NCBI RefSeq assembly: GCF_037977055.1 | Contig: NZ_CP150274.1 | Location: 2,232,001 to 2,296,000 of the forward strand | DNA length: 64,000 nt | Source: Paenibacillus sp. FSL K6-1096 | Lineage (GTDB): Bacteria; Bacillota; Bacilli; Paenibacillales; Paenibacillaceae | Reading direction: 5' to 3' | In this document: positions 11,096-47,657 of the stretch, piece by piece | Layout: every line of letters begins with the position of its first letter | How positions within the stretch are numbered: the stretch's first letter is position 1 | Made by a program: the position numbers and the translations under genes | Notes under the pieces: generated by a model | The model's database searches: none | The model's input: only the letters and a program-made list of their open reading frames with translations | Told to the model about the DNA's origin: nothing

Positions 11096-11273
11096 AATGT
11101 ATGCTGTTTTTCGCATAGATTCAGGCCACATGCCTGCACATCAGCAAATGTATGCTGTTTTTCGCATAGATTCGAGCCAGATGCCTGCGCATCGGCAAAT
11201 GTATGCTGTTTTCCGCATACATTCAGGCCACACGCCTGTGCGCCAGCAAATGTATGCTGTTTTTCGCATACAT
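11096..11273. repeat. four-word 51-bp-period element, hairpin type (E1)
   Basis: The word TGTATGC-TGTTTTTC-GCATACA (stem-loop) occurs four times, with TGTATGC starting at 11098, 11149, 11200 and 11251, exactly 51 bases apart. The closing arm is GCATAGA in words 1-2 and GCATACA in words 3-4. The 25-base spacers are also alike (AGGCCACATGCCTG and variants). The total length of about 178 bp and the step match the GCGGACT and TTGTACA elements elsewhere in this window. It lies after the tRNA-Arg terminator. A minus-strand frame gives a 17-residue repeat but lacks a ribosome site. Confidence 0.85.
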
Positions 11274-11286
11274 AATTCCCACGATG

Positions 11287-11321
11287 AAAAGGGGCTGTCA
11301 CTTTTGGGACAGCCCCTTAAT
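11287..11321. terminator. hairpin GGGGCTGTC/GACAGCCCC
   Basis: Arms AAGGGGCTGTC and GACAGCCCCTT surround an 8-base loop. On the minus strand TTTT follows the stem. It sits between repeat elements E1 and E2 and has no obvious gene, so its role as a terminator is only structural inference. Confidence 0.55.
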
Positions 11322-11366
11322 CCAGAGGGATGAGAATCCAGCGCGGCAGAACCTTACTGGTACCTC

Positions 11367-11543
11367 GCGGACTGGAGTTCCGTTATTTCGGCGGATTCCA
11401 GCCTGTCCGCAGGTTAGGCGGACTCAGAATCCGTTAAGTAACCTAATCCGCATCATTTGGAGCTCGAACATACCTGTTAACGGCCCCTCTGCAACGGGCA
11501 GGGGATCGGGGTTTTACAACCAAATAGCGGCCTCTCAGTCCGC
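11367..11543. repeat. four-word 51-bp-period element, GCGGACT type (E2)
   Basis: The 177-bp element begins GCGGACTGGAGTTCCG and ends in the inverted word CCTCTCAGTCCGC. A second direct word, GCGGACTCAGAATCCG, starts at 11418, 51 bases after the first. The third, inverted word is damaged by a few missing bases compared with E3. The core contains CATTTGGAGCTCGAA. Neighbouring E3 is a close copy 261 bases further on. No open reading frame of its own was seen. Confidence 0.85.
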
Positions 11544-11627
11544 ATCCCCCTGCTGGTGGACGTGCCTGTACGCTAATGGCTTGGTTAGGAAGAACGCTCA
11601 ACGGTGGAGGACCCTTCATGAATCCTC

Positions 11628-11809
11628 GCGGACTGGAGTTCCGTTATTTCGGCGGAATCCAGCCTGTCCGCAGGTTAAGCGGACTCAGAATCCGTTAAGT
11701 AACCCAATCCGCATCATTTGGAGCTCGAACGTACCTATTAACGGCCCCTCAGTCCGCAACGGGCAGGGAATCGGGCATTTACAGCCAAATAGCGTCCTCT
11801 CTGCTCCGC
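11628..11809. repeat. four-word 51-bp-period element, GCGGACT type (E3)
   Basis: This is a near copy of E2 in the same orientation. The words start at 11628 (GCGGACTGG) and 11679 (GCGGACTCAG), and inverted words end at 11757 (CTCAGTCCGC) and 11809 (CTGCTCCGC), giving steps of 51, about 78 across the core, and 52. It lies 50 bases from the end of the minus-strand gene at 11859, so transcription of that gene would run into it. Confidence 0.85.
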
Positions 11810-11858
11810 ATACCATCCGCAATTGTCTTTCACGCCCCGGGCTGGACGCCACAGCTCC

Positions 11859-12215
11859 TCACTCCTTGATATAGTGAGTAGCATAATGCATCTCAACCGT
11901 TGCATCACCAGACTTGGAAAAGCGAAGCGGGCGCTTAGGCCCCTTGCCCCATTTGACATAAGCGGTGTGGGACGGCTTCAGCTCAAGCTCCCGCGCCTGC
12001 TTACGGATCAGCGACAGGATGAAGTTGAACTGCGACAGGTTGCCGCGCAGGACCCGCTCCAGATACGGCACCTTACCGAAGCGCCACTCTTCTACCTGCT
12101 CAGGACGGACTGCTCCAAGTCTGAGGAACACTTCTAACCGAGCGACAAAGCCCTTCCCGGCAATGAGCTTCTTCACAATTTGGTCGACTTTCTTGTTTAG
12201 TTCCTGCCTATTCAT
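11859..12215 (-). CDS. hypothetical protein, partner of the RQC-like gene
   Basis: This 118-residue basic protein has an N-terminal helical region (NRQELNKKVDQIVKKL) and a C-terminal part rich in basic and aromatic residues (YVKWGKGPKRPLRFSKSG). That composition would suit nucleic-acid binding. I do not recognise the family. Its ATG overlaps the last 8 bases of the upstream RQC-like gene, and a GGAGGAC ribosome site lies inside that gene, so the two are translationally coupled and probably act together. Confidence 0.75.
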   Translation of the reverse strand: MNRQELNKKVDQIVKKLIAGKGFVARLEVFLRLGAVRPEQVEEWRFGKVPYLERVLRGNLSQFNFILSLIRKQARELELKPSHTAYVKWGKGPKRPLRFSKSGDATVEMHYATHYIKE

Positions 12216-13014
12216 TCATGCCGTCCTCCGTATTCCTGCAATGCTCGCACTTCTCCGGAAAGTAAATACCATCTGCCCGGTAGCAGCTCAAATCATGATG
12301 ATCGAATACATACGGATCGCCGCATTCCGCACACTGCAGAATCACCGGATCGCGCGTGTGTTGGATCAGCGCTTGCGCGCGGTCCAGCAGCAGCTGATGC
12401 CATGCGCTCTCCTCCAGCCGGTCACGCTCCTGCAGATCAGTGACGACCCTCTGGATCTCGACCTTTACCTTCGCGTAGTCTACAGCATGCCACTGCTCCA
12501 GGAAGGGGATGTATTTCCGGTCACCGGAACACAGGATTTTGAACAGAAACAACAGAATCATGCCCCGGTTACGATCCTTCAAATATTCCATACTGACCGG
12601 CGCTATCCCATGCTCCAGCCAGTGCTCCCACTCCCGCAGCAGCTCTTCCGCCCCCCGTTCCCGCCGGACAGTCCAGCCGTAGACGGTGAACTTGATGAGA
12701 GGGAGCTTCCCGGACAGCTCGGTCTCCAGGTACCCGGTTGCTAGGAGGACATCCACCTTCTCCATGATCTGCTCCATCGTCAGCTCGCGGTAGAAGCCAT
12801 AGGCGGGTGTGTGATTCAGCCCGAGTTCAAGCAGCTTCTTCTCCTTCGAGCCCTTCAGGATCTTGGCCAGAAGCGTGCGCCCTCCAGCGTCAATAATCTC
12901 ATCAGCTGCCTGCAATATGGCAAGCATCTCCGGTCTCGGCAGCGGTGTATTCAGCGGATACTCGGGCGGCTGCTTCCGGTTCGGCTTACGGCGGTTGGTC
13001 TTCTGTGCGCTCAC
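12208..13014 (-). CDS. RQC-like winged-helix DNA-binding protein with C-terminal zinc motif
   Basis: After a basic, disordered N-terminus (KTNRRKPNRK), residues about 22-118 resemble the winged-helix RQC domain found at the C-terminus of RecQ helicases (PRPEMLAILQAADEI, then KLPLIKFTVYGW). No helicase domain is present. I recall a family called RQC-minor with this layout. The C-terminus has CAEC and CEHC pairs that could bind zinc. The GTG at 13014 is chosen because AAGGAGG lies 8 bases upstream; the in-frame start 33 bases earlier has no such site. It forms a two-gene unit with the 118-residue protein. A role in recognising DNA structure is inference. Confidence 0.72.
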   Translation of the reverse strand: MSAQKTNRRKPNRKQPPEYPLNTPLPRPEMLAILQAADEIIDAGGRTLLAKILKGSKEKKLLELGLNHTPAYGFYRELTMEQIMEKVDVLLATGYLETELSGKLPLIKFTVYGWTVRRERGAEELLREWEHWLEHGIAPVSMEYLKDRNRGMILLFLFKILCSGDRKYIPFLEQWHAVDYAKVKVEIQRVVTDLQERDRLEESAWHQLLLDRAQALIQHTRDPVILQCAECGDPYVFDHHDLSCYRADGIYFPEKCEHCRNTEDGMNE

Positions 13015-13124
13015 AGCGTCCTGCCTCCTTGTCCTTATTATGAACACAGGCTCGTCCAGCCTGCGCCTATTTCATAGTCGAATTATAGCATACCCGCGAT
13101 CAACCAGAAAAAGGAACCTGCGCC

Positions 13125-13168
13125 AACAGGCTGCCCGCCATGAAACTTCCATAGCAGAGCAGCCTGTT
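13125..13168 (-). terminator. probable pst operon terminator
   Basis: Arms AACAGGCTGC and GCAGCCTGTT are separated by 24 bases, 41 bases past the pstA stop. The U-rich tail (CCTTTTTCTGG) is displaced by about ten bases, so efficiency is uncertain. Confidence 0.5.
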
Positions 13169-13208
13169 ACACCCGGATATAGCTTCTATTCCCCCACTTG
13201 CAGCCGCC

Positions 13209-14090
13209 TCAGCGTCCCCGGCGGCGGTTGCCCAGCCACAGCGGGAAGCGGAAAATAAAGTTGATCATCAGCACCACAAACACCAGCACCGCCGCGGATT
13301 TATCGGCGATCTGCCGCGCGTCCTCGACGATGGCCTCGGACTGTACATACCACAAATGCACCGCCAGGGTCTCGCCCGGCGAGAACAGATTGAAATCCCA
13401 CATCTCGCCGGAGGTGCTGAGTCCGGCGGTCAGAATGATGACCGCCGACTCCCCGAAGGCGCGTCCGGCCACCAGGCAGACGCCAGTTACAATTGCCGGC
13501 AGGGCTACCGGCAGCACGACCTTGCGGATGACATGGAACTTCGTCATGCCGAGGGCATAGCCGGCTTCCCGGATGTCGCCGGGAACCGCGCGCACCGCTT
13601 CCTCGGTGACGCGGGCCAGCATCGGCAGGTTCAGCAGCGCCAGGCTGACACCCCCGCCGAGGATCGTCAGGCCAACGCCGAAGTACTCGGCGAAGATGGC
13701 CAGACCGAGCAGGCCGAAGACGATGGACGGCACGGAGGACAACGATTCCACGCAGATGCGCAGCGCTCCCGTGAAGGCATTGTCCGGCGCATACTCCGCC
13801 ATATAGATCCCTGCGCCGATACCGATCGGCACCGAAATCAGCAGGGAGATGAACAGAATGTAGAAGGAGTTGAACAGGACGGGGCCGATCCCCCCGCCGG
13901 CATCGATCTCCTCGGGCTGCTTGAGCAGGAAATCCGGCCGAAGCGTGGGCAGGCCTTTGCTGAGAATGGTGAACAGCAGCCAGAAGATTAGCAGCATGAC
14001 TAGAGCGCCTAGCGTATAGAAGCCGATCGTCGCCAGCTTGTTCCGGCGCTGGGCTCTGACCGTGTGGCGTGTGCGTGTGAATCCGTTCAT
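13209..14090 (-). CDS. pstA: phosphate ABC transporter permease PstA
   Basis: PstA is one of the two membrane subunits of the high-affinity phosphate importer. The 293-residue product has six predicted membrane segments and the inner-membrane transport motif, with EAGYALGMTKFHVIRKVVLP forming the loop that contacts the ATPase. Its ATG overlaps the pstC stop by one base (TGATG). It is the last gene of the unit; no pstB ATPase or phoU follows within this window, so the ATPase must be encoded elsewhere. Confidence 0.95.
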   Translation of the reverse strand: MNGFTRTRHTVRAQRRNKLATIGFYTLGALVMLLIFWLLFTILSKGLPTLRPDFLLKQPEEIDAGGGIGPVLFNSFYILFISLLISVPIGIGAGIYMAEYAPDNAFTGALRICVESLSSVPSIVFGLLGLAIFAEYFGVGLTILGGGVSLALLNLPMLARVTEEAVRAVPGDIREAGYALGMTKFHVIRKVVLPVALPAIVTGVCLVAGRAFGESAVIILTAGLSTSGEMWDFNLFSPGETLAVHLWYVQSEAIVEDARQIADKSAAVLVFVVLMINFIFRFPLWLGNRRRGR

Positions 14091-15034
14091 CAGGCATCCC
14101 TCCGTTTGCGGCCCAGGAGCCGGATCACCAGAATCAGCACGAACGAAATCAGCAGCAGCAGGAACGCCATCATATGCAGGGCATAGTTCCAGGTGGAGTC
14201 GAATTCAACATTCGAGATCTGCATCACGATGTTGCTGGTCAGCACCGAGGTTGGCGCGAACAAGCTTTTGGCGAGCTGCGGCGTGTTCCCGATCACCATG
14301 ACCACCGCCATGGTCTCGCCGACAGCGCGGGTCATCCCCAGAATGACAGCCGAGATAATGCCCCGGCTGGCGGCGGGCAGGACGACGCGCATAATGACCT
14401 GGAGCCGGGTGGAGCCCAGCGCATAGGCGGCATCCCGGTATTTGCGCGGAACGGCGGTGATTGCATCATCGCTGATCCGGCAAATGGTCGGCAGCACCAT
14501 CAGCGCCAGCACCAGGGCAGCAGCCAGCAGCCCGTCCCCCAGGCCTTCCCCGCTGATCCGGCGCAGGAAGGGAAGCAATACGGTCAGGCCGAGATAGCCG
14601 TATACTATAGAAGGAATGCCGACCAACAGGTCCAGCACCGGGCGGATGAAGCTGTTCAGCCACTTCGGCGCAATCTCCGCACAGAGCACCGCCATGCCGA
14701 CCGAAACCGGAACAGCAATGACCAGCGTCAGCGCAGTCAGTGACAATGTATTTACAATGAAGGCTGCCGCTCCGAACATGTCCTCCTCCGGCGACCAGTT
14801 GAACGAGAAGAAGAAGTCCATAGGCGAGATTTGACTGAAGAGCAGCAGCGCTGTTTTGCCGATAAAAATAATAACGAGCCCAAGCACCACACAGAGTGCA
14901 AGGATACTGAACAGAAAATAATAACGTGATACGATGTTGCCCAGCAGATGTCTGCGGTGCCGCTTGGTATTATGCTTAACCTTCTGAGCGCTTGTCTGTG
15001 TCTGTGTTGTCAGGCCGTGAACCGGTGCCCCCAT
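14090..15034 (-). CDS. pstC: phosphate ABC transporter permease PstC
   Basis: This is the second membrane subunit of the phosphate importer, 314 residues, with an N-terminal cytoplasmic stretch rich in Lys/Arg/His (KHNTKRHRRH) followed by six membrane segments. The permease loop DAAYALGSTRLQVIMRVVLP matches the family. The ATG at 15034 is chosen because AGGAGGGA lies 5 bases before it; an upstream start would lack this. It is coupled to pstA by a one-base overlap and follows pstS by 87 bases. Confidence 0.95.
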   Translation of the reverse strand: MGAPVHGLTTQTQTSAQKVKHNTKRHRRHLLGNIVSRYYFLFSILALCVVLGLVIIFIGKTALLLFSQISPMDFFFSFNWSPEEDMFGAAAFIVNTLSLTALTLVIAVPVSVGMAVLCAEIAPKWLNSFIRPVLDLLVGIPSIVYGYLGLTVLLPFLRRISGEGLGDGLLAAALVLALMVLPTICRISDDAITAVPRKYRDAAYALGSTRLQVIMRVVLPAASRGIISAVILGMTRAVGETMAVVMVIGNTPQLAKSLFAPTSVLTSNIVMQISNVEFDSTWNYALHMMAFLLLLISFVLILVIRLLGRKRRDA

Positions 15035-15121
15035 ACTTTCCCTCCTGTAAGAGGCCAACCCCGGAATCCCGGAGCTGGCCGCTGTTGCCTATCAGTCTAT
15101 GTGCTTGCCGAATCTCTCTTA

Positions 15122-15985
15122 TTAGGACTGCATTGCCGAAATCGGAATGAACTTCAGCTTCTTGAGCGAGCCGGACTGGAATTTCTTACTCTGTACATAT
15201 TCAATGAATTCTTTGGTAGCGCCGGTTGGCTGGCCCTTGGTCATATAGTAGCCGTAAGCCCAGATCTTGTAGGAGCCGTTGATCACGTTATCCGTGGTCG
15301 CTTCTACACCGTTGAACTTCACAGCCTTGATGTCGCTGCCGGTTACATAGACAAGGTCGATATATCCGATGGCGTTAGGCGTGGTGCCTACTGCGGTTTT
15401 CATGTCGCCGCTGGAGCCGGTTTCCTTGTAGTTCTTCTCTTTCTTCACGATGTCCCCGCCGCCCAGCGCTTTAGCCTGATAGTTAACACGGGTACCGGAA
15501 CCGAAGGCGCGGGTGATGACAACGATATTCGCGTCTGCTCCGCCGACTTCTTTCCAGTTGGTGATTTTGCCGGAATAGATGCCCTTCAGCTGTTCAGTGG
15601 TCAGATTATCTACGCCAACATTCTTGTTCACGATCGTGGCAAACGGAATGACTGCGACCTTATTCGCTACCTGTCCGTCAAAAGCCTTAAAGCCCGGCAC
15701 ATCCACGCTGGCATCCCAGTCACAGGCACCGATATCGGCGATCCCCTTCTTCACGGCCTGCGGTCCGGTCACGGAGCCTTTGCCGGATGCGGCGATTTTC
15801 ACCTTAGGGTGCAGCTTCTGGAATTCCTTCGCCGCCTGCAGGGTCAGCGGAAGCAGTGCTGTAGACCCGTTGACGGTGATTTTACCCTTAAGGCTGTCCG
15901 CTGCTGCGGCCACCCCTGCGAAAGATGCGGTAACCGCGATTACTGCGGTGAGTGCTGTAACTGTTAATTTTCTGAAAACCTTCAT
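15122..15985 (-). CDS. pstS: phosphate-binding protein PstS
   Basis: This is the substrate-binding protein of the phosphate importer, 287 residues. The phosphate-loop elements VNGSTALLPL, SGKGSVTGPQAV and RAFGSGTR are present, as is the central CDWD segment. The N-terminus is a cleavable signal peptide ending about ...GVAAAADS, without the lipobox cysteine usual for Gram-positive PstS, so the protein may be released or held by other means. A GGAGGAGAAA ribosome site precedes the ATG. The upstream neighbour, 42 bases away, is a stalk/propeller protein on the same transcript. Confidence 0.95.
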   Translation of the reverse strand: MKVFRKLTVTALTAVIAVTASFAGVAAAADSLKGKITVNGSTALLPLTLQAAKEFQKLHPKVKIAASGKGSVTGPQAVKKGIADIGACDWDASVDVPGFKAFDGQVANKVAVIPFATIVNKNVGVDNLTTEQLKGIYSGKITNWKEVGGADANIVVITRAFGSGTRVNYQAKALGGGDIVKKEKNYKETGSSGDMKTAVGTTPNAIGYIDLVYVTGSDIKAVKFNGVEATTDNVINGSYKIWAYGYYMTKGQPTGATKEFIEYVQSKKFQSGSLKKLKFIPISAMQS

Positions 15986-17611: not shown

Positions 17612-17624
17612 TGTAAAAGCTATG

Positions 17625-20877: not shown

Positions 20878-23800
20878 GTGGGTTATCAGGTACCGGAACG
20901 GGTAATCAAGCTGCTGTGCGGCAATGCCGCCTTTGATCAGGGGGCGGCTTATTATCATTCCCATAAGGTGGACCTTGTCTATACGGAGCATAACGAGGAA
21001 GAGGAATATTCCAAATACCGCGCTGAAGTCCATGGCCTGGACAGCCATGAGATTGCGCTGATTGTAGACAGCGACGGCGATGTGCAGGGGGAATGTACCT
21101 GCCCGGCGTATGTTCACGGCGGACCTTTCTGCAAGCATATTGCGGCGGCGCTGGTGACGGTCCTCTACCGCAGCCAGGCTGCAGGAGCCGAACGGACTGA
21201 GGATATGCCGGCAGATACAGAGGTGGCATATCCCGGGAGAATCGGCAGTCTGCCGCTGGCGCAAGGCAGAGTTGGCCCTTCTGGGACTGAGCACAGGGAG
21301 CGCAGCGTAGACAAGCAACTGGTAAGTAACATGCTCGGGATGTTCACCGGAGGACGGCAGCAGCCAAGCGGTGCCGGCACATATATCGACCTGCGCACAC
21401 CGCTCCAGGTCGAGTTCATCTGCCGGCCCTTCAACATCGGCTACAGCAGTACGATGCTGGGCATCGAAGTGAAGCTGGGCCCCAAGCGCCTCTATATCGC
21501 TCAGAAGATCAGACCTTTTCTGGAGCAGGTCCGCCGGGGCGAGCCCTTTGAATTCACAGCGCACTTCAGCTATGATCCCGCCCAGCATAGCTTCTCCAAG
21601 GAGGATAACGAAGTCCTGCTGAGGCTGATCGAAATCATGCTGAATGAGAAGGTCTACAATAGCCTCCACAATCCGTATGCTGCCGGCTTCAGACATCCGG
21701 GAAATGACCGGCTGCTGCCGGTGGCTCCTTTTTTCTGGGAGAGTCTGTACCCCCTGCTGGAAGCAGCGCCTGCGGTATGCCTTCAGCATGGACAGCTTCA
21801 GCTGGACCGCTTGGCTGTCTCGGATGAACCGCTGCCGCTCAGCTTCCAGTTCGACCAGGCACAGGAGGAGGGTTACCGGCTGGATGTCCGGGGGCTTGAG
21901 CAGCTTACGATTCTGGAGAACTATGGGCTGGTCTTGACCGAAGACAGGCTGCTGAAGCTCCCGGCACAGGAATGCATCCGTCTCTCCGAGCTGAAGCGGA
22001 TGCTCAGCGGCAGCCGGCGGGACAGCCTGGCGATTACGCCCGAGCAGATGGAGCCCTTCATGGAAAGTGTTATACCCGGGCTGAAGAAGCTCGGCAGGGT
22101 AAACATTGCCGACGCTATCGCGGACAGGATCGTCCAGACCCGGCTTCAGGCCAGACTCTATCTGGACCGGGTGAGGGACCGGCTGCTGGCCGGGCTTGAA
22201 TTTCAGTACGGCGGCATTGTCATCAATCCGCTGGAGGAGAAGGCGCAGGAGCGGAGCCGTGAGGTCATTCTCATGCGGGACGGGGAAGCGGAGCGGCGGA
22301 TTCTCGACCTGATGGCGCATGAATCGTTCGCGCGGACCGAGAGCGGATATATCATGCGCGATGAGGAGGGGGAATTCGACTTCCTGCACCATACCATACC
22401 GCTGCTGGAGCCGCTTGTGCAGATCTATGCCACTACGGCGGTCAAGGAGAGAGTCCTCACGGATCACGCCATGCCTAAGGTCAGCCTAAGCTGGAACGAG
22501 AAGACCGACTGGCTGGACTTCAAGTTCGCGATGGAGGGGATCGGCGAACAGGATATTGTTGAGGTGCTGAAGTCGCTGCAGGAAAAGCGTAAATATTACC
22601 GCCTGCCGGACGGTGCCCTGCTCCCGCTGGAAGGCGCTGAATTCCAGGAGATCATCGCCCTGATGAACGAGCTTGGCGTCTATAGTGTGGATATCCGCAG
22701 TTCGGAGTTCTCCCTGCCGCTGCTCCGCACCCTTCATCTGCGTGCAGAGACCGGCCAGGGGGAAGCCGTTCAGCTCGGCCGGTCCCTCCGGCGGCTGCTG
22801 GCCAATCTGTCGAATCCCGAGAATCTGGATTTCCCAATGCCGGAGAGCCTTGTTTCTGTGCTGCGGGATTACCAGCAGTACGGCTTCCAGTGGATGAAGA
22901 CGCTGGCCCATTACCGCTTCGGCGGGATTCTGGCTGACGACATGGGCCTCGGCAAAACGCTCCAGAGCATCGCCTTCCTGCTCTCTGAGTTGGAGGATAT
23001 CCGGCAGAGCGGCGTACCTGCACTAGTAGTTGCACCCGCTTCCCTGGTCTATAACTGGCACAATGAGCTGAAGCGTTTCGCTCCGGAGATTAAGGCTGTC
23101 ATTGCTGACGGCAACGCCGGGGAGCGCAGCCGGACGCTGAAGAATACTGCCGGACAGGACGTCATTATCACATCGTATCCGCTGCTGCGCAGAGATGTGG
23201 AGGAATACGTGAAGCGCTCCTTCCATACGCTCATTCTGGATGAAGCGCAGATGATCAAGAATCACGAGACCCAGACCGCCCGGGCGGTCAAGCTGCTCCA
23301 GGCCCGTTACCGCTTCGCGCTGACCGGCACACCGGTGGAGAATGCGCTGGAGGATCTGTGGTCGATCTTCAGCGTGATTTTCCCCGGACTGTTCCCCGGC
23401 AAGAAAGCCTTTCATGACCTTCCCCGGGAGACTGTAGCCAAACGGATCAAGCCGTTCCTGCTGCGCCGCCTTAAGAGCGATGTGCTGAAGGAGCTGCCGG
23501 ACAAAATCGAGTCCCTTCAGGCCTCCGAGCTGCTGCCGGAGCAGAAGAAGCTCTATGTCGCCTATCTGGCCCGCCTGCGCAAGGAAGCGCTCAAGCATCT
23601 GGACAGCGACAGCTTCGGCAACGGCCGGCTCAAGGTGCTGGCCGGGCTTACCCGGCTGCGCCAGCTCTGCTGCCACCCCGCCCTGTTCGTGGACGGGTAC
23701 ACAGGCGGCTCCGGCAAGTTCGAGCAGCTCTTGGAGATTATCGATGAATGCCGCAGTGCCGGCAAGCGGATGCTGATCTTCTCACAGTTCACGCAGATGC

Positions 23801-24222
23801 TGGGGTTGATCAGCCGGGAACTGGCTCTGCTGGGGATTCCGTATTTCTACCTGGACGGCCAGACCCCTGCCGCGCAGCGTGTGGAGCTATGCAGCCGCTT
23901 CAACGAAGGCGAGCGGGACCTGTTCCTGATCTCGCTGAAGGCAGGCGGAACAGGCCTTAATCTGACCGGGGCCGATACGGTCATTCTCTACGACCTGTGG
24001 TGGAACCCCGCTGTCGAACAGCAGGCGGCCGACCGTGCCCACCGGATCGGGCAGAAGCGGATTGTACAGGTGATCCGCCTGGTTGCCCAAGGGACGGTGG
24101 AGGACAAGATGTACGAGCTGCAGCAGAAGAAAAAGAGCCTGATCGACGAAGTCATTCAGCCGGGCCAGGAGGCGCTGTCCAGCCTGAGCGAGCAGGATAT
24201 CCGCGAGATTCTCTCGCTCTGA
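20878..24222 (+). CDS. SWIM zinc-finger SNF2-family helicase
   Basis: This large 1114-residue Swi2/Snf2 ATPase has an N-terminal SWIM zinc finger (Cys73, Cys75, Cys85, His87; CTCPAY then FCKHIAAAL), then a Firmicute-type SNF2 N-terminal region. The ATPase core has Walker A DDMGLGKT at about 686-693, a DEAQ box near 787, and the C-terminal helicase lobe ending in AHRIGQKR. Such proteins (YwqA/HelZ-like) remodel protein-DNA or RNA polymerase complexes; the exact role is unproven. The start is GTG, and an ATG 18 bases upstream is immediately closed by a stop. The gene begins 48 bases after the TetR gene and may be partly cotranscribed with it. Confidence 0.92.
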   Translation: MGYQVPERVIKLLCGNAAFDQGAAYYHSHKVDLVYTEHNEEEEYSKYRAEVHGLDSHEIALIVDSDGDVQGECTCPAYVHGGPFCKHIAAALVTVLYRSQAAGAERTEDMPADTEVAYPGRIGSLPLAQGRVGPSGTEHRERSVDKQLVSNMLGMFTGGRQQPSGAGTYIDLRTPLQVEFICRPFNIGYSSTMLGIEVKLGPKRLYIAQKIRPFLEQVRRGEPFEFTAHFSYDPAQHSFSKEDNEVLLRLIEIMLNEKVYNSLHNPYAAGFRHPGNDRLLPVAPFFWESLYPLLEAAPAVCLQHGQLQLDRLAVSDEPLPLSFQFDQAQEEGYRLDVRGLEQLTILENYGLVLTEDRLLKLPAQECIRLSELKRMLSGSRRDSLAITPEQMEPFMESVIPGLKKLGRVNIADAIADRIVQTRLQARLYLDRVRDRLLAGLEFQYGGIVINPLEEKAQERSREVILMRDGEAERRILDLMAHESFARTESGYIMRDEEGEFDFLHHTIPLLEPLVQIYATTAVKERVLTDHAMPKVSLSWNEKTDWLDFKFAMEGIGEQDIVEVLKSLQEKRKYYRLPDGALLPLEGAEFQEIIALMNELGVYSVDIRSSEFSLPLLRTLHLRAETGQGEAVQLGRSLRRLLANLSNPENLDFPMPESLVSVLRDYQQYGFQWMKTLAHYRFGGILADDMGLGKTLQSIAFLLSELEDIRQSGVPALVVAPASLVYNWHNELKRFAPEIKAVIADGNAGERSRTLKNTAGQDVIITSYPLLRRDVEEYVKRSFHTLILDEAQMIKNHETQTARAVKLLQARYRFALTGTPVENALEDLWSIFSVIFPGLFPGKKAFHDLPRETVAKRIKPFLLRRLKSDVLKELPDKIESLQASELLPEQKKLYVAYLARLRKEALKHLDSDSFGNGRLKVLAGLTRLRQLCCHPALFVDGYTGGSGKFEQLLEIIDECRSAGKRMLIFSQFTQMLGLISRELALLGIPYFYLDGQTPAAQRVELCSRFNEGERDLFLISLKAGGTGLNLTGADTVILYDLWWNPAVEQQAADRAHRIGQKRIVQVIRLVAQGTVEDKMYELQQKKKSLIDEVIQPGQEALSSLSEQDIREILSL

Positions 24223-24273: not shown

Positions 24274-24452
24274 TTGTACTTTTTACACTAGAATAAGGCC
24301 CCATTAGTTGAAAAATCGGATCTGCTGCATTTTGTACACTAGATTTTTGCGGATATGCCGTTTCGAGCAGAAATTCAGTAAATCAAATGTATGAAGTGCA
24401 GCAGAATGGCTTTTCGCGCCCAAAAGTACAGTTTCTAGTGTACAAAATACAA
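24274..24452. repeat. four-word 51-bp-period element, TTGTACA type (E4)
   Basis: The 179-bp element begins TTGTACTTTTTACACTAGAA and ends with the inverted word TTTCTAGTGTACAAAATACA. A second direct word (TTTTGTACACTAGA) lies 51 bases after the first, aligned on ACACTAG. The expected third word is degraded. The core GAGCAGAAATTCAGTAAA resembles the core of E6 (GGAGCACAAATTTCAGTAAA), and TTAGTTGAAAA occurs after word 1 in both, though the words differ. It abuts a truncated gene remnant. Confidence 0.8.
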
Positions 24453-25747: not shown

Positions 25748-25765
25748 GATACAAACTCATATTGA

Positions 25766-25998
25766 ATCGATGAACGGGAGAGTAATCGTCTCTAGTCTAG
25801 TCCCCAGCGAGCCGGGTTGGTGTAAGCCGGTACAGATGAAGGCGGTGAAGCGCACCCGTGAGATGGACTTCTGAACTTGCAGTAGGAAGCCCCGGCTCAG
25901 GACCGTTACCCTATAAGGTGGTTGAACCAACGGTTCAGCAACAGGAGTGGTACCGCGAGCGCACAGGCCTCGTCTCTTAGGAGACGCAGGCTTTTTTT
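25766..25998 (+). promoter_or_regulatory. T-box riboswitch controlling argS
   Basis: The leader has a long Stem I region, with AGCGAGCCGGG and GGTGTAAGCCGG as typical distal motifs. The T-box consensus AGGAGTGGTACCGCG lies at 25943-25957. A terminator with arms GCCTCGTCTC and GAGACGCAGGC (one bulge) and seven T residues ends at 25998. Uncharged tRNA-Arg is expected to pair with the specifier and the T-box bulge and so allow read-through. I could not assign the specifier codon with certainty; CGC and CGT triplets are both present in the right area. Confidence 0.92.
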
Positions 25999-26034: not shown

Positions 26035-27996
26035 ATGTCATTGTTAAGTGAGCTTATCGGGCACAGTCTGGAGCAGGCTGTCCGCATCATCTCCGCAGAG
26101 CTCGGCCAAGCCGGGCTCCCTCAGGGAACCGTGGCGCTGGAGCAGCCTGCGAATGCCGAGCACGGGGATTATTCCAGCAATATCGCCATGCAGCTGGCCC
26201 GTCCTCTGCGCAAGTCACCGCTTGCCATCGCAGAGCTGATTGCCGCAGAGCTCCAGGCGTCAGGTTCGGTGAACGGGCTGGTACAGAGTGTCCGCGTAGC
26301 TGCGCCGGGCTTCATTAACCTGTACTTGAATTGGCGGGCGTGGGCAGAGGCCAAGGATGATTTTGCGCTGCCGCAGAGTCATGGAACGAAGATCATTGTC
26401 GAGCATACCTCAGTTAACCCGAATAAAAGCATGCACGTAGGGCATCTGAGAAACGCCTGCATCGGAGATGCGCTGGTGCGAATGCTGCGGGCCACCGGCC
26501 ATACCGTTGAGGTGCACAACTACGTGGATGATCTCGGCAATCAGCTGGCTGATACGGTGGCCGGTCTGCTGCATGTTCCGCTGGCGGGCGGGCATGTCCG
26601 GTTCGGCGATTACTGCTGGGATATTTACGCTGAGATCAACAAGACGTATGCACAGCATCCTGAGACGGTCCAGAAGCGGACAGAGATTCTCCACGCGCTG
26701 GAGGAAGGGGACGGCAACACCGCCTGGATGGGCGCGCTGGTCGCCGGGCAGATCGTCAGAGAGCATGTTGAGGAGATGCGCGGCTTCGGCATTGACTACG
26801 ACCTGCTGGTGTGGGAGAGCAGCATTCTGAGAGAGGGCTTCTGGTCAGCGGCATTCAGCCTGCTGTCGCAGACAGGGGTGTTCGTTCAGGAGACGGAGGG
26901 CAAGCTGGCCGGCTGCTGGATTCTGAAGCAATCCGCTGAAGACACGGAAGCAGACACGCTTGAGGAGCATCAGAAGGATAAGGTGCTGGTGCGCTCGAAC
27001 GGGATTTTGACCTATACGGCCAAGGATATCGCTTATCATCTGTGGAAATTCGGACTGCTGGACAAGGACTTCAAGTATAGCGAGTTCAGCAGCGGGCTGT
27101 GGACGACCGGCTTGACGGGGCAGGCGCTGCCTTTTGGACAGGCGGACCGGGTGGTGAATGTCATTGATTACCGGCAGGAGTATCCTCAGGCGATGGTGAA
27201 GCAGGCTCTCCAGGCGCTGGGGTTCGGCGCACAAGCGGACTCGCTGCATCATGTCAGCTACGGCGTCGTCTCGCTGAGTCCCGCTTCTGCGGCTGAGCTT
27301 GGCATCGATACCTCCAGCGGCAAAAGCTCCTACGCCATGTCCGGGCGCCAGGGAATCGGCATCAAGGTCGCCGACCTCGTCCGGCTTATGGAGGATACCA
27401 TCGAAGCGACCCGTTCGGATAAAAACGGGCTGTCCAGCCGGCTCATCGCCACCGCTGCCATCCGTTACTACCTGCTGCGCTTCAATCTGGGCACCGAGAT
27501 TGTGTTCGACTTCAAGCAGGCGATGGAAATCTCCGGCAATACCGGCGTCTACCTGATGTACGCTTATGCCCGGGCCAGCCGGGTAATTAGTAAGGGCTTG
27601 GCGGCCGAGGGTGCGGGCGGTGTGGACATGAGCGAAGTGACTGCGGGTAATGCGGGTGTGGAAGCTGCGGGCAGTTGGGGCAAGGACACGGACAAAGCAG
27701 CCAGCGGGCTGCCGCCCTTCCCGGCGCAGCTTGAAGCCGCTGAGCTTGCCCTGTTGAGACAGCTCAGCTTGTGGCAGGACACACTGTACACAGCCAGCCG
27801 GGAGCTGACGCCGAATACGATCTGCAATTATGCCCATAGTCTGGCCTCGCTGTTCAATAACTTCTACTCCGCCTGCCCGATCCTCAAAGGCAGTGAGGCC
27901 AGCATCGCCTTCCGCTTGTGGCTGACCCGCAGCTTCACCGCCACCCTGGGCGAGGCGCTGGATGTGCTGGGCCTGCCCAAGCCGGAGCGGATGTAA
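26035..27996 (+). CDS. argS: arginine--tRNA ligase
   Basis: Class I aminoacyl-tRNA synthetase charging tRNA-Arg. The 653-residue protein has the ArgRS N-terminal Add-1 domain, the HIGH motif as HVGH at 134-137 (preceded by EHTSVNPNKSMHVGH), the KMSKS region as MSGRQGIGIKV, and the DALR anticodon-binding domain. It is about 90 residues longer than the usual Firmicute enzyme. Part of the excess is a low-complexity insert before the DALR domain (GGVDMSEVTAGNAGVEAAG and onwards). It is controlled by the upstream T-box and lies between two tRNA-Arg(UCU) genes. A second, shorter argS may exist elsewhere in the genome. Confidence 0.95.
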   Translation: MSLLSELIGHSLEQAVRIISAELGQAGLPQGTVALEQPANAEHGDYSSNIAMQLARPLRKSPLAIAELIAAELQASGSVNGLVQSVRVAAPGFINLYLNWRAWAEAKDDFALPQSHGTKIIVEHTSVNPNKSMHVGHLRNACIGDALVRMLRATGHTVEVHNYVDDLGNQLADTVAGLLHVPLAGGHVRFGDYCWDIYAEINKTYAQHPETVQKRTEILHALEEGDGNTAWMGALVAGQIVREHVEEMRGFGIDYDLLVWESSILREGFWSAAFSLLSQTGVFVQETEGKLAGCWILKQSAEDTEADTLEEHQKDKVLVRSNGILTYTAKDIAYHLWKFGLLDKDFKYSEFSSGLWTTGLTGQALPFGQADRVVNVIDYRQEYPQAMVKQALQALGFGAQADSLHHVSYGVVSLSPASAAELGIDTSSGKSSYAMSGRQGIGIKVADLVRLMEDTIEATRSDKNGLSSRLIATAAIRYYLLRFNLGTEIVFDFKQAMEISGNTGVYLMYAYARASRVISKGLAAEGAGGVDMSEVTAGNAGVEAAGSWGKDTDKAASGLPPFPAQLEAAELALLRQLSLWQDTLYTASRELTPNTICNYAHSLASLFNNFYSACPILKGSEASIAFRLWLTRSFTATLGEALDVLGLPKPERM

Positions 27997-28015: not shown

Positions 28016-28195
28016 GCGGACACAGAGGACCTTATTTGCCGAAAAAGCGTGATTTCCTCCCCGCTGCGGACTCAGAAGCTCTTATACTACCCTTTGGAGC
28101 TGAAATCGGGCTAAATCTGGTTACTTAACGGATTCTGAGTCCGTCCAGCCTGCGGACAGGCCGGAATCCGCCAAAATAGGGGATTTACAGTCCGC
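28016..28195. repeat. four-word 51-bp-period element, GCGGACT type (E5)
   Basis: The 180-bp element begins GCGGACACAGAGGACCTTAT, and a second direct word, GCGGACTCAGAAGC, starts at 28066. Inverted words end at 28144 (TTCTGAGTCCGT) and 28195 (TTTACAGTCCGC). The core is CCTTTGGAGCTGAAATCGGG. On the minus strand it resembles E2 and E3 over GGCGGATTCC, GCCTGTCCGCAGG and CAGAATCCGTTAAGTAACC. It follows argS and faces the convergent tRNA-Arg. Confidence 0.85.
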
Positions 28196-28416: not shown

Positions 28417-28419
28417 TTA

Positions 28420-28493
28420 CGTCCCGGGAGGGATTCGAACCCCCGACCGTGCGCTTAGAAGGCGCATGCTCTATCCAGCTGAGCTACCGGGAC
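28420..28493 (-). tRNA. tRNA-Arg(UCU), second copy
   Basis: Reverse-strand cloverleaf with acceptor GTCCCGG/CCGGGAC, anticodon loop CTTCTAA (TCT) and T-arm GGTTCGAATCC. It differs from the copy at 10950 by only a base or two near the acceptor 3' side (CCCTCCCGGGAC against CCCTTCCGGGAC). No CCA is encoded. Confidence 0.97.
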
Positions 28494-28574
28494 ATGAACA
28501 CTATGTATTAATGCAACGTTATTCATTATAACTGATTCACCAGATTTATCAAGCCTAAAATCTTCCAGAAAAAG

Positions 28575-42326: not shown

Positions 42327-42889
42327 TTCGTATATTACCTCCCCGGTTCTATGCGTAACCTGCATACCTGCCTCTTGCCGCATGTGCTCTGCCGTTGCCA
42401 CCCCTCATGGGGATGAAGCGCTCACCTCCCGGACCGGATTGACCTTCACCCTGTGAAACTATTTAATTGACAAAGACTTGATAATAGAGCTACAACAATC
42501 CAATAACGCAGCGCAAACGGCACACGGACAGACTATTGCCCCGCTGCAAATCTGTTTCGAATATATAACCTGCAGTTGCTTATGGATGGATAACTTCTGC
42601 TGATACCAGCGCTGGTGCAGTAAGTTTTGCAGAATTCAGTTAAGCCGCCTGTGTCATGCAAAACTTGTGGAAGGCATTCATTAGTGGAAGGATGCGGATG
42701 ATGCGAAGGGGTGAAGTCACTCTTATTCTCATACAAAGGTTGCGGAATTGCTAGGGGGAGATTTCCATAATCAGGGGATAATATTATCTTGTGCAGTCAT
42801 AATGTAATGCTGATATCCCCTGATGCTTTCAAAAAAAAGAGGATACCCCGCAAACTTCAGGCATCCTCTCTTCTGTATTCCCTATGCAA
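42327..42889. other. 563-base intergenic region with long inverted repeat
   Basis: It holds the chitinase upstream region and, at 42770-42780 and 42814-42824, a perfect 11-base inverted repeat (ATCAGGGGATA and TATCCCCTGAT) with a 33-base AT-rich loop. The rdgB terminator follows. No gene with a ribosome site was found. Confidence 0.6.
42829..42872 (-). terminator. terminator of the gerM-rph-rdgB unit
   Basis: Arms GAGAGGATGCC and GGTATCCTCTT with a short loop, then TTTTTTTT on the minus strand. Confidence 0.85.
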
Positions 42890-43531: not shown

Positions 43532-43532
43532 C

Positions 43533-44291
43533 CTACACCTCCTGGCCGGTGAGGCCGGAAGGGATTTTGAGCGCAATGGCCCCCAGCACTTCCTTCTGCA
43601 CCGCGATCAGCTCATGAATCCCCTTCTCGCCGAGGCCCAGCAGCTCGTCCAGCTCCTGGCGGGTGAACGGCCGCTCCTCACCGGTTCCCTGCAGCTCCAC
43701 CAGAGCACCGTTTCCTGTCATGACCACATTCATATCGACCTTCGCCTTGGAATCCTCTTCATAATTAAGATCCAGCAGCGTCTTGTCCCCGACGACACCC
43801 ACGCTAATCGCCGCAAGATAGTCTGTAATCGGGAACACGGTCAGCTTATTCTGGAGCGCAAGCTTGTTCATCGCAAAGGCCATAGCGACAAAAGCGCCTG
43901 TAATTGAAGCCGTCCGCGTTCCACCGTCCGCCTGGATCACATCACAGTCCAGCGTAATGCTGCGCTCGCCGAGCGCCTGCAGATTCACCACCGAACGCAG
44001 AGCCCGTCCGATCAGACGCTGGATCTCCATGGTCCGTCCGGTCAGCTTGCCGCGTGCTGCTTCCCGCTGGTTGCGGGTCTGGGTCGCCCGTGGCAGCATC
44101 GAGTATTCGGCGGTTACCCAGCCCTTGCCCTGCCCCTTCAGGAATGGCGGCACCTTCTCATCCACGGTTGCTGTACAGATGACCTTGGTATCCCCCATCT
44201 CAATCAGGACGGAGCCCTCTGCATATTTGTTCGTCTGTGTGGTTATCGTCAGCGGCCGAAGCTGGTCTTCGTTGCGTCCGTTTGATCTCAT
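43533..44291 (-). CDS. rph: ribonuclease PH
   Basis: RNase PH trims tRNA 3' ends phosphorolytically. The 252-residue protein begins with [20 protein letters not shown] and has [20 protein letters not shown], the phosphate-binding and catalytic region, and [28 protein letters not shown] ribosome site precedes the ATG. It sits between gerM and rdgB. Confidence 0.97.
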
Positions 44292-44465
44292 CTGTCTGCC
44301 TCCTACATTGTATAGCGCGATATACGCAGAAGCGGGTGCCGCCCTCCAGGTAAGAAGAGAACGGCACCGCTGCTCCTGACACGCTATTCGGATAAATAAT
44401 ACTTTATTCTATCAAAGAGTAGGCAATAAAGCATCTTTTTAAACCCCGGACCTGATTCTCCAGCA

Positions 44466-45587
44466 CTACAGCGGCAGCTCGTTCACATACTCCGGTGCTG
44501 AAACCGGCTGTCCGTAGTCGATGTTGTTGGTGCCCTTGACCGTCTCTTTGCCGTTCAGGCGGATCTGCACCAGCGAATCGTCCGTATTCTGGGCCACCGT
44601 CAGCACGACCGATTCCAGCATCTCCTCGGGAATGCTTGTGCTGCCTTCGAACATATCATCCTTCAGCGATACGGTAACGACCCCGTTCTGCCCCGCATTG
44701 ATGGAATCCACCACCGTTCCCTGCGTCATGACCATCTCCAGGCCGTTCTCCGACTGCGGTCCGGCAATCAGCTCGCTGAGGGCGGCCTTCACCCTGTCTC
44801 CGCCTGCGGGTACAAAACGCGTAACCGGAACATAATACTGATGCTTCCCATCCGGCGAAGCTGCTGCGAAATAGACCGTCACGGCACTGGAATTCATCAT
44901 CAGCGCGTTGTGCTTGGACAGGTTGATGCCCATCGTCCGGGTCAGCGGCCGGTCCAGCGGAGTGCCCTGCAGCGGCATTTCGGTAAGCTTGCGGCCATCG
45001 ACCCAGAGCTGAACGCCCTTGATGTCATCCTGCCCGGTCAGTGTCCAGGTGAGCGCTTCGAGAATTTTGCGTTCATCTGCGGGATCATAGTCTGTAAAAG
45101 CCGAGTTAAACTCCACAATCGCCACCTGATCCTGGCCGACCGACACTTGCTTCACTTCTGTTCCGGCGGGCAGTACGCCCTGGAAGCCCTCCGGCAGCGC
45201 CTTGGCGTAGTCTCCCTTGCTGACCAGCGCCGTAAGCGAATCCTTCAGCATCGCCTGGTCTCCCGCTTGCGGAAGTGCCAGCGACACCGGAGCCAGCAGG
45301 CCGTTCTGATCCTCCAGGTACACGGTGGTCCGCTCCCCGGACTCAGCCGCGGCTCCCTCATCCTTCACTTCCGCCGCTGTCTGCTCTTCATCCTGGGAGA
45401 CCGGCCCGAACACTCCGGTATCTGCTGTGCTCTCGCCGCTGACCTGCAGCATTTGCGCTTCCACTTCAGCCGGAGGCGGGTCGACAGCAGCCGATTCCGA
45501 GCCGAACAGACTGCAGCCGGACAGCATCAGAGGTACAGCCAGCAGGCAAGCCGCGGAGATTCCGCGGATATGTTTCACAGGTTTCAT
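44466..45587 (-). CDS. gerM: GerM-type sporulation/germination lipoprotein
   Basis: The 373-residue lipoprotein has a signal peptide ending MLSGC (cysteine 25). Two GerMN domains (about 85-205 and 235-360) follow a low-complexity acidic stretch. Each domain includes the pattern ...VYLEDQNGLLAPVSLALP or ...VTVYFAASPDG-like segments. In Bacillus, GerM contributes to the channel complex joining mother cell and forespore. The ATG at 45587 is taken over a TTG one codon upstream. It is first in the gerM-rph-rdgB set, with 174 bases before rph. Confidence 0.9.
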   Translation of the reverse strand: MKPVKHIRGISAACLLAVPLMLSGCSLFGSESAAVDPPPAEVEAQMLQVSGESTADTGVFGPVSQDEEQTAAEVKDEGAAAESGERTTVYLEDQNGLLAPVSLALPQAGDQAMLKDSLTALVSKGDYAKALPEGFQGVLPAGTEVKQVSVGQDQVAIVEFNSAFTDYDPADERKILEALTWTLTGQDDIKGVQLWVDGRKLTEMPLQGTPLDRPLTRTMGINLSKHNALMMNSSAVTVYFAAASPDGKHQYYVPVTRFVPAGGDRVKAALSELIAGPQSENGLEMVMTQGTVVDSINAGQNGVVTVSLKDDMFEGSTSIPEEMLESVVLTVAQNTDDSLVQIRLNGKETVKGTNNIDYGQPVSAPEYVNELPL

Positions 45588-45835
45588 CAATCTTCATTAC
45601 CCCTTTCAAGGCTAGGATCAGTTTGTACTGCTATGTATACGAGCCCTGTGTCCAAAAAATAACAACAGCTTATCCTAAATTACAGAAGGGTTGTCCGGTT
45701 GCTTAGTGTGCCCCTGTCTGACAGCGGAAGCTCAGCCTGACCCGCGCTTCTGGACATCAGTCTGCCGCTTGCGTACAATTTAGTACATACCGGTATCTAA
45801 GCGATCATAACCCACTCACAAATGGAGGACTTCAC

Positions 45836-46435
45836 ATGACCGATGCCAAAATTCCTTACAGCCTCAACAGCAAAGCCGTTGCCGAAGCCACCCGTTACTG
45901 GCTGCACAAGCGCGGGGTAACCCTGGAGGAGATCGCCGAGCTTGTCATGCTGCTGCAGAAGAAGTACTATCCGAACCTGACCATGGAAGAGTGTATTCAC
46001 AACGTGGAGATGGTGCTCAGCAAGCGTGAGGTGCAGAATGCGGTGCTGACCGGCATCCAGCTGGATGTCCTGGCCGAAGAGGGCAAGCTGTTCGGCCCGC
46101 TCCAGGATATGATAGAGAATGACGAAGGCTTGTACGGCGTGGATGAGATTCTCGCCTTCTCCATCGTGAACGTATACGGCAGTATCGGCTTCACCAACTA
46201 CGGCTACGTGGACAAGCTGAAGCCGGGCGTGCTGGAGAGGCTGAATGACAAGTCTACCGGCGAGGTGCACACGTATCTGGACGATATCGTCGGTGCCGTG
46301 GCCGCAGCCGCGAGCAGCCGGATTGCCCACCGCAAGCAGGCGGAACGTGAGCAGGAGCTCGGCCAGCCCCATGCCCCGGAGGATGTGGAGGAGGCCGCGC
46401 GCCATAGTGCACCGGAGGACACGGAACCGGAATAA
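45836..46435 (+). CDS. phosphatidylglycerophosphatase A (YutG type)
   Basis: This 199-residue PgpA-family protein (B. subtilis YutG) removes phosphate from phosphatidylglycerol phosphate. The family core lies at residues 1-165 (RGVTLEEIAELVMLLQKKY; VDEILAFSIVNVYGSIGFTN), with metal-binding acidic residues in YLDDIVGAVAAAASSRIAH. It has no membrane segments, like the Gram-positive soluble form. A charged tail follows (EDVEEAARHSAPEDTEPE). The ATG is preceded by AAATGGAGG. A hypothetical gene follows 39 bases later. Confidence 0.85.
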   Translation: MTDAKIPYSLNSKAVAEATRYWLHKRGVTLEEIAELVMLLQKKYYPNLTMEECIHNVEMVLSKREVQNAVLTGIQLDVLAEEGKLFGPLQDMIENDEGLYGVDEILAFSIVNVYGSIGFTNYGYVDKLKPGVLERLNDKSTGEVHTYLDDIVGAVAAAASSRIAHRKQAEREQELGQPHAPEDVEEAARHSAPEDTEPE

Positions 46436-46474
46436 GACGATTCATCATATTCAGTAGAGGGGTGCGTAGTACGC

Positions 46475-47308
46475 ATGAGCTATTCGTTCGTAGTGGAGCC
46501 TTTGGCTATCCAGGATTTTGAGAGTGAAGACGAGCTGATTGAACGGTGCAAGGAATGGAATCTGCTGTCCGGGTCTGCGACCCGGCCTAAGACCTATCAG
46601 TATAAGCGCCAGGGCCTGTCCCTGCCTTGCGAGATAGTGGGCTACGTAGATAATCAGACCGTGGTCATCCAGTTCGAGAACAAGCAGCACCACTGCATTC
46701 ACCCGGCCTACCTGAAGGAAATGCAGACGGCCAGCTTCGGGCAGCGCGGGTTCTCGGCAACCGAGGCGAAGACGGAGGAGGCTCTGGAAGAGGGCGGAGA
46801 GATTACCGAGGCGGAGGAGGCTTCCGGTGAGGGGGCTTTGCTGGATGCGGATGCTGTTGGCGGAGATGGACTCGGGGAGAGTGGAGTTGCTGAAGTAGCG
46901 GAGAGCGAAGGGAGCGAAGCTGGAGCAGGAAGTGCAGCTTCTGCGAAGCAGACTGCTCCTGAGAGCAAGCCGGCGAAGCCAGCCGCCAAGAAAAAAGCAG
47001 CCGTGCAGCTCCCGGAAGACAAGCTCAAGATCACCGCAGTCGTCAAGGAGTTCACCACCGTGCCCAACCATTTCTCGGATAACGACGACGAAGTTATCAT
47101 TTATGAAGGGATTACCATCGAGGGCCATGATCTGCCGATCGAAGAGGTCTGGTCCAGCCATAGCGCTACGCTGAAGAAGCTGGAGCTGAAGGAGGGCGAT
47201 CGCCTCTCCTGCGAAGCCAAGATCGTAGCCAAGAAGCTCACCCAGCACCCGGTCAAATACAAAATTAACAACCCCTCCAAGCTGCAAGTCATCCCGCCGG
47301 AAGGCTAG
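46475..47308 (+). CDS. hypothetical two-domain protein with acidic linker
   Basis: In this 277-residue protein an N-terminal domain (about 1-90; SYSFVVEPLAIQDFESEDEL, then SLPCEIVGYVDNQTVVIQFE) is followed by a strongly acidic Ala/Glu/Gly linker (about 95-170) and a Lys/Ala stretch. A second domain (about 183-277; VIIYEGITIEGHDLPIEEVW) ends in KLQVIPPEG. Both domains look beta-rich, like small nucleic-acid-binding folds, but I recognise no family. A GAGGGGTGCG ribosome site precedes the ATG. A 17-bp hairpin follows the stop. Confidence 0.7.
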   Translation: MSYSFVVEPLAIQDFESEDELIERCKEWNLLSGSATRPKTYQYKRQGLSLPCEIVGYVDNQTVVIQFENKQHHCIHPAYLKEMQTASFGQRGFSATEAKTEEALEEGGEITEAEEASGEGALLDADAVGGDGLGESGVAEVAESEGSEAGAGSAASAKQTAPESKPAKPAAKKKAAVQLPEDKLKITAVVKEFTTVPNHFSDNDDEVIIYEGITIEGHDLPIEEVWSSHSATLKKLELKEGDRLSCEAKIVAKKLTQHPVKYKINNPSKLQVIPPEG

Positions 47309-47344
47309 GAACGCCGGATGGATCTGAGGTAAGGGATAGCAAAT

Positions 47345-47392
47345 ATAGGGCCGCCAAGCATGGACTAGTTGTCTATGCTTTGGCGGCCCTAT
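47345..47392 (+). terminator. long hairpin after the gene at 46475
   Basis: Arms ATAGGGCCGCCAAGCAT and ATGCTTTGGCGGCCCTAT pair over 17 bases with one bulge. The T-run is missing, so termination may be inefficient. It stands 37 bases past the stop. Confidence 0.65.
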
Positions 47393-47478
47393 CTACGCTC
47401 CCCGGCCGGATTCAGGTGCACTTGTGCTCCTCATTTCCGCTGCCCCCCTTGCACCTCATCTCATCATCGTTACGCAGA

Positions 47479-47657
47479 CGGACAGAGAGGACGCTATTTA
47501 GTTGAAAAGGACTCTTTATATGCCTGCTGCGGACTGAGTGCCGTTATCGAGCCATTTGGAGCACAAATTTCAGTAAAGCAGGTTAGTTAAGGGCCTCTGA
47601 GTCCGCGCGATATGCAAAAAGAGGCGATTGCACCGAAATAACGTCCTTCCAGTCCGC
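47479..47657. repeat. four-word 51-bp-period element, GCGGACT type (E6)
   Basis: The 179-bp element begins CGGACAGAGAGGACGCTATT, and its second direct word starts at 47529-47530 (GCGGACTGAGTGCCG). Inverted words end at 47606 (CCTCTGAGTCCGC) and 47657 (CCTTCCAGTCCGC), exactly 51 bases apart. The core GGAGCACAAATTTCAGTAAA and the TTAGTTGAAAA after word 1 are shared with E4, whose words differ. It lies between convergent genes. Confidence 0.85.

Follow-up and report, generated by a model that had tools for sequence, protein, structure and literature searches.

Arrays of short dyads are known from sopC-type partition repeats and from Tn3-type res sites, in which sites I and II lie about five helical turns apart. 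REP/BIME sequences, which are GTAG-tagged and RAYT-associated, are extragenic palindromes present in many copies, several of which commonly follow one another. As reported in PMC6379681, BIME-2 elements sit between genes and contain gyrase sites, the Escherichia coli DNA gyrase motif is symmetric with periodic arms (period 10.75 bp), and gyrase is attracted downstream of transcription. Bacterial miniature inverted-repeat transposable elements (MITEs) include Bcr1, RUP, and NEMIS (PMC3733652). Here we describe six elements in a 64,000-nucleotide window (the whole stretch analyzed, positions 2,232,001 to 2,296,000 of contig NZ_CP150274.1) of Paenibacillus sp. FSL K6-1096, whose genome is 7.19 Mb in one contig. 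On re-reading the sequence, the positions and letters of all six agree with the original prediction. The elements belong to three classes, E (TGTATGC hairpin), T (TTGTACA; subtypes T1, ..AGAT, and T2, ..TAAA), and C (GCGGACT), and share a step of 51 bp from word to word.

The likeness to described systems is partial in each case. Compared with sopC and res, the elements are chromosome-wide and come in several word classes. They resemble REP/BIME as palindromes in many copies; here, however, the step is fixed at 51 bp across unlike words, the spacers drift while their length stays, and a constant GTAG tag was not seen by eye, T words ending in RYAGA or YTAAA and the other classes differing. With MITEs such as Bcr1, RUP, and NEMIS, they have in common that they are short, non-coding, and dispersed, with inverted symmetry; in contrast, they have four phased dyads, a spacing kept at an orthologous locus, and no clear target-site duplication among 70 T2 copies. 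The gyrase motif is alike in symmetry, in the roughly helical periodicity of its arms, and in enrichment downstream of transcription units, whereas the elements have a period of 10.1 to 10.2 bp instead of 10.75 and dyad words at 51-62-51. No described family with this layout appeared in the literature searched, at the level of titles and abstract openings and with several queries aimed at known families, which agrees with the original prediction.

Results

A type-blind scan looked for sets of four 20-nt words of any sequence, laid out as two direct and two inverted copies, at steps of 24 to 90 bp in 444 kb of the genome (the window plus 19 sampled stretches). Step 51 had 17 clustered matches, steps 50 and 52 had none, and no other step had more than two. 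A looser cut gave 29 matches for steps 49 to 53, some of them GC-rich and coding-like, against one in a single first-order Markov shuffle. When 844 kb were scanned at steps 50 to 52 for palindromic and tandem layouts, 56 of the 65 matches (some of them coding) lay at step 51. Pairs of similar dyads behaved likewise: 31 stood at distance 51 against a median of one per distance, and the next distances, besides multiples of 51, were 81 (11 pairs) and 54 and 216 (10 each).

Among relatives, 481 kb held 81 dyad pairs at distance 51 against a median of zero, followed by 164, 52, and 42 with eight to nine (19 of 98 loci were excluded as non-Paenibacillus, very short, from another genus, or our own). 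These loci had been chosen by a T pattern permitting any step of 36 to 66, so that T words were imposed on the relatives and the step of 51 was not. In a named collection that included other bacteria, 57 of 80 T-pattern matches had step 51, and 100 kb from each of four relatives yielded 5, 5, 3, and 3 matches at this step, with at most three at single other steps. Two stretches of another genus, chosen by the same pattern, gave eight matches at step 51 and up to three at some other steps; 18 unselected 20-kb stretches of other genera showed no peak at 51, their counts being nearly all an artifact of an N run in one stretch. The architecture is real and independent of any one sequence. Copies in the sampled stretches keep the step, and the type-blind and dyad scans support the predicted superfamily of non-coding elements with interchangeable words.

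At least five word classes keep the 51-bp step, also in other species of the genus. Besides E, T, and C there are class D (AGTTGGATAAACAACACTTA) and class B (TCCTGCA..TGCAACA), and relatives carry further words, e.g., AGGTGTA..TACACCT and GGGGCA..TGCCCC. Out of 394 genomes of the family, 35 had a match to the T pattern, which is strict and undercounts; these came from 2 of 19 genera, and most named matches are Paenibacillus species. In another genus of the family, 51-step elements carry words such as TACACTGCA..TGCAGC, several near-identical ones lying close by. Similarity searches of the genome, query counted, returned 5 and 7 matches for two C queries, 10 for T, and 36 for the T2 subtype, and an E query gave 82 (40 of 143 candidates scored). 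T2 had 30 further matches of 92 to 179 bp at 68 to 78% identity, and a T2-containing query found 23 to 43 per relative (whole query, gene matches included). From the 65 scan matches and the list in the original prediction, 38 elements were picked by hand, leaving out matches in called genes and GC-rich coding-like ones and merging overlaps; if these 38 in 844 kb are typical, extrapolation gives about 300 in the genome.

The geometry is clearest in class T. Of 153 T elements drawn from several species, 149 showed all four dyads, with search windows of 46 to 56 bp within halves and 56 to 68 bp across the center. Among the 149, successive distances between dyad centers were 51 in 142, 62 in 129, and 51 in 137, all three being canonical in 113. 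The step of 50 to 52 bp originally claimed throughout therefore needs amending: a direct 51-bp step is present in all six window elements (the first step of the one at 28016-28195 is 50), but 51 is confined to each half, and the central dyads of class T are 62 bp apart. Since the T set is partly redundant through near species, a reduced set of 51 elements less than 75% identical was drawn from it; in these the half-sites are 81% identical and the spacers 36%, against 26% when shuffled. Spacer sequence is near saturation while spacer length is kept. In fetched loci, 82 full T elements had model lengths of 189 bp (60), 190 bp (18), or 188 bp (4), and of 70 T2 copies with a mean pairwise distance of 0.23, 17 had an indel between the outer words. 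As in a phased array of dimer sites, the dyad words stand at integral helical turns, with the length of the spacers kept and their sequence not.

The two positions of a T-word dyad vary independently (TA 35, CA 24, TG 10, AC 2, and CG 1 in 72 words). Compensatory base pairs received no support in these dyads or in a T2 alifold analysis, whose covariation term was unfavorable. Because C-A is common, which pairing RNA would avoid, and T2 covariation is unfavorable, the T words read as a double-stranded site with half-site TTGYA, and the suggested structured 3' RNA finds no support in this class. In the same T2 analysis, by alifold and mutual information, the top pairs were not structure-like and are read as subfamily signal.

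AA/TT dinucleotides recur every 10.1 bp in T, also with the words masked, and every 10.1 to 10.3 bp in C, D, and B, with little periodicity in control intergenic DNA. Power at 10.2 bp was 6.2 for T (n = 51), 8.7 for C (4), 7.7 for D (3), and 9.9 for B (8) against 1.75 in 200 control intergenic pieces, of which 8 reached the T median; T spacers alone gave 6.8. The mean phase about the center was 0.5 bp for T (concentration 0.96, n = 51), 0.8 bp for D (0.96, n = 13), and 0.8 bp for C (0.57, n = 4; the averaged C profile puts it at 1.3 bp). The similar phase in T, D, and C is, with limits, a sign of one chassis. It is also compatible with words on one face of the DNA, as originally proposed, 51 bp being five helical turns.

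Behind the same gene as the window T element (24274-24452), an intact T element was found in 7 of 24 relatives searched. Dyad distances are 51-62-51 in ours and six relatives and 51-60-51 in the seventh; in ours, the core has lost one base and gained another, which leaves the distance at 62. In ours and the five nearest, diversity is 0.076 for the element, 0.077 for the end of the upstream coding sequence, and 0.213 and 0.162 for the flanks; within the element it is 0.056 to 0.061 in the words and 0.093 in the spacers. Gap columns number 3 (3 runs) in the 189-bp element versus 110 (5 runs) in 106 bp of flanks. With two more distant relatives added, the values are 0.097 for the coding end, 0.168 for the element, and 0.407 and 0.334 for the flanks, whose alignment is then poor. 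At the locus of the C element at 28016, some relatives have C-type elements and others, by eye, tandem arrays of other words; of the five relatives' loci run through Tandem Repeats Finder (TRF), four have a period of exactly 51 and one has no such array.

For gene context, genes were called by our own hexamer caller rather than taken from an annotation. Of 151 T elements 136 were unique, and 21 lacked both flanking genes, which left 115: 75 tandem, 37 convergent, and 3 divergent, the background in the same fetched loci being 21 divergent of 152. In sampled stretches of our genome, 41 of 156 intergenic regions of at least 200 bp were divergent; the 38 hand-picked elements were 19 tandem, 13 convergent, and 6 divergent, five of these six lying beside very low-scoring open reading frames (ORFs), in rRNA loci, or over an ORF. 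E arrays (36 distinct ones in the sequence examined) were 20 tandem, 16 convergent, and 0 divergent. Thus E arrays and T elements all but avoid divergent gene pairs. An overlap of more than 60 bp with a called gene occurs in 3 of 136 T elements. Two sampled D elements lie 118 to 124 bp behind 5S rRNA, and among 13 D copies scanned three, including these two, follow 5S rRNA and one follows a tRNA. The query D copy lies behind an rRNA operon and shares 97% and 87% identity with the two other rRNA-linked copies, the remaining matches ranging from 68 to 93% with the high ones short; the rRNA-linked copies look as if homogenized. Counted per side, terminators pointing toward and away from the elements numbered 9 and 4 for T2 (70 copies), 13 and 7 for T (82), 1 and 0 for T1 (4), 6 and 5 for B (8), 4 and 2 for D (3), and 0 and 1 for C (4), and 24 and 34 at 246 random positions. 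A terminator rule for the non-E classes was dropped, with no clear rule for T and too few copies of B and D.

The 36 E arrays have 2 to 13 units each, so the 178-bp length of the array at 11096-11273 is incidental and the claim of near-equal length does not extend to this class. Each of the 36 is pure in orientation, 18 of the 20 in tandem contexts are co-oriented with the genes, and 30 of 36 are co-oriented with the leading strand. A replichore bias is absent from T2 and is therefore not a general polar signal. The origin is not at the contig start, because both GC skew and the main gene strand switch in two places, between the samples near 0.16 and 0.46 Mb and between those near 3.4 and 3.7 Mb. 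Among 193 units, stem pair 7-20 is formed in 160 (125 expected under independence) and stem pair 8-19 in 132 (93 expected); the remaining stem pairs are near expectation, and units within one array are not independent. A co-oriented terminator-like hairpin lies 8 to 123 bp upstream of 21 of the 36 arrays and downstream of 5 (within 260 bp); where it is a terminator, the main transcript should stop ahead of the array. For the E class the suggested structured RNA thus keeps some ground, with two covarying stem pairs and strand specificity with respect to genes, but it has the upstream hairpin against it; an RNA role is possible. One E subfamily in seven loci is flanked by related terminator hairpins (AGGGGCTGTCCC .. 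GGGACAGCCCC), by eye cassette-like for convergent gene ends. The pattern of a CRISPR array, constant repeats with unrelated spacers, does not fit, since the spacers within E arrays are alike.

The window elements and their neighbors

The E-type tandem array (11096..11273, minus strand) consists of four 26-bp dyads starting at about 11097, 11148, 11199, and 11250; TRF reports a period of 51 with 3.6 copies. Its A-rich loop is on the minus strand, in the same orientation as the gene to the right. No strand is assigned to the remaining elements. Class C at 11628..11809 has direct words at about 11630 and 11681 and inverted ones at 11736 and 11787. Its neighbor at 11367..11543, 91% identical, keeps words 1, 2, and 4, a small deletion having by eye removed the third. 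The C element at 28016..28195, between the ends of argS and tRNA-Arg, has a first step of 50 and a second pair at 51, and that at 47479..47657 has direct words at about 47478 and 47529 and inverted ones at 47587 and 47638. The T element (24274..24452) has dyad centers at 24281, 24332, 24394, and 24445. The predicted four-word layout therefore stands for the T element and the other C copies, but not for the variable-length E array or for 11367-11543 without its word 3.

The predicted setting, between convergent genes or gene ends, is borne out in part: the elements lie between tRNA-Arg and a gene end, between the argS and tRNA-Arg ends, and at the end of an SNF2-helicase gene, and our gene caller places a convergent pair at 47479. 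A shared core was found to be weak: D has its best fit to the T core when the two are aligned (z 2.4), but GCGGACT does not (z 0.9, 7 copies). An Rfam scan of the window at gathering scores returned a T-box and two tRNAs, with no described family at the elements. The T-box leader (25761-25980) is upstream of the arginyl-tRNA synthetase gene (26035-27996, ArgS models), which stops 20 bp short of the C element at 28016. Two tRNA-Arg (TCT) genes, 10949-11025 and 28419-28494, are in opposite orientation, and each is close to C elements and to terminator-like sequence resembling that near the other, an arrangement like an inverted duplication. A large SNF2-family helicase gene (20878-24222) directly precedes the T element; its top NCBIfam match, a pilus-regulating Snf2 helicase, is below the cut-off.

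Discussion

We read the spacing, dyads, phasing, location, kept length, and conservation at one orthologous locus as the marks of DNA platforms at gene 3' ends, phased arrays of dimer sites that would be wrapped or looped by a putative protein assembly, and we give this reading a probability of a little under one half. Each word is an imperfect dyad, the type of site bound by a protein dimer. Because the spacing is 51 bp (5 x 10.2) and, across the T center, 62 bp (6 x 10.3), four such dimers would face one side of the helix. AA/TT every 10.1 to 10.2 bp through words and spacers, with a similar center phase in three classes, would be expected of DNA bent round a protein assembly. A dimeric architectural protein, with paralogues of different word preferences, would then bind and wrap or loop about 180 bp. 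Most speculatively, the platforms might manage supercoiling or stop runaway transcription at gene ends, including those behind rRNA operons.

Several observations weigh against this. The binding protein is putative. Intact T elements are missing within about 330 bp of the same gene in 17 of the 24 relatives (two have remnants), and the relative with the most similar gene (92%) is among them. Conservation was measured at one locus with a small indel-run count (3 vs 5). The C phases are loose, two of the four C copies being near-duplicates, and the phase common to T and D may reflect descent, because T2 is similar to the first word of D and the two classes have similar cores. A static-curvature model with wedge parameters gave no clear curve: the end-to-end/contour ratio was 0.89, versus 0.91 in controls, and 78 of 253 controls did not exceed the T median. 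The phasing would therefore have to reflect bendability, which we take as bendability for wrapping. Finally, E arrays have their AA/TT peak at 12.8 bp, a harmonic of 51, rather than at 10.2; with this peak and their strand specificity, they may be another thing. The T element is constrained where kept, yet losable.

Non-autonomous mobile elements, MITE-like with inverted and direct repeats, are the likeliest of the other explanations, though still improbable to us. The words would be outer and inner transposase sites at each end, with a spacing required by the transposase. The two direct and two inverted words fit this, as do the dispersal of T2 within the genome (the 30 further matches) and in relatives (the 23 to 43 whole-query matches) and the differing presence among relatives at one locus. 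Of the suggested mobility, the dispersed family stands, but a search of the 70 T2 copies with k-mers of 2 to 11 at many offsets found no clear target-site duplication (best excess 34 versus 26 shuffled, k = 2). Inverted symmetry is present in T2, and on either side of the four words similarity among copies continues and fades gradually over tens of bp. An orthologous copy retaining sequence and spacing, and differently worded classes sharing one ruler, also speak against this explanation; a mobile origin of some families is compatible with protein platforms. A role at mRNA ends for transcribed arrays of 3' RNA hairpins seems a poor prospect: the orientation of the E arrays and their two stem pairs above expectation argue for it, and the terminator-like hairpins ahead of 21 of those arrays, the unfavorable T2 covariation term, and the common C x A mismatches in T dyads argue the other way.

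Slightly less probable still are gyrase-binding sites, a Gram-positive counterpart of BIME-2. Gene-end location, a symmetric element with periodic arms, and D copies behind rRNA operons match the symmetric E. coli motif with its periodic arms, the drawing of gyrase downstream of transcription, and the gyrase sites of BIME-2, as reported in PMC6379681; the reported motif, however, has a period of 10.75 against 10.1 to 10.2 and lacks the four dyad words. Decayed coding repeats or plain minisatellites are hardly credible and were already disfavored. While 51 is divisible by 3 (17 codons) and E arrays and the other-word arrays of relatives are tandem repeats, 62 is not divisible by 3, classes T, C, and D contain inverted words, unlike words keep one and the same step, and few T elements (the 3 of 136) overlap a called gene.

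Bacterial intergenic repeats are usually classified by sequence; in the present case one exact ruler is common to families with unlike words, and three of these also have a similar rotational phase about the center, which suggests a common physical partner. If this holds, spacing-based scans detect superfamilies that similarity searches split or miss. Beyond the platform reading, one might imagine a Paenibacillus-wide system, a bolder picture that we consider doubtful: dimeric wrapping proteins, paralogues of one another and each reading a separate word, would use a fixed 51-bp chassis, which persists while the words at a locus turn over in concert. Gene ends would carry a few hundred nucleosome-like clips that hold supercoils or insulate neighbors, and word swaps would record co-evolution with the proteins. 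If the platforms are what we propose, they would offer a genome-wide handle, defined by sequence, for studying how DNA is wrapped or insulated where genes end in a large Gram-positive genus, and the natural word swaps and losses would be ready-made experiments.

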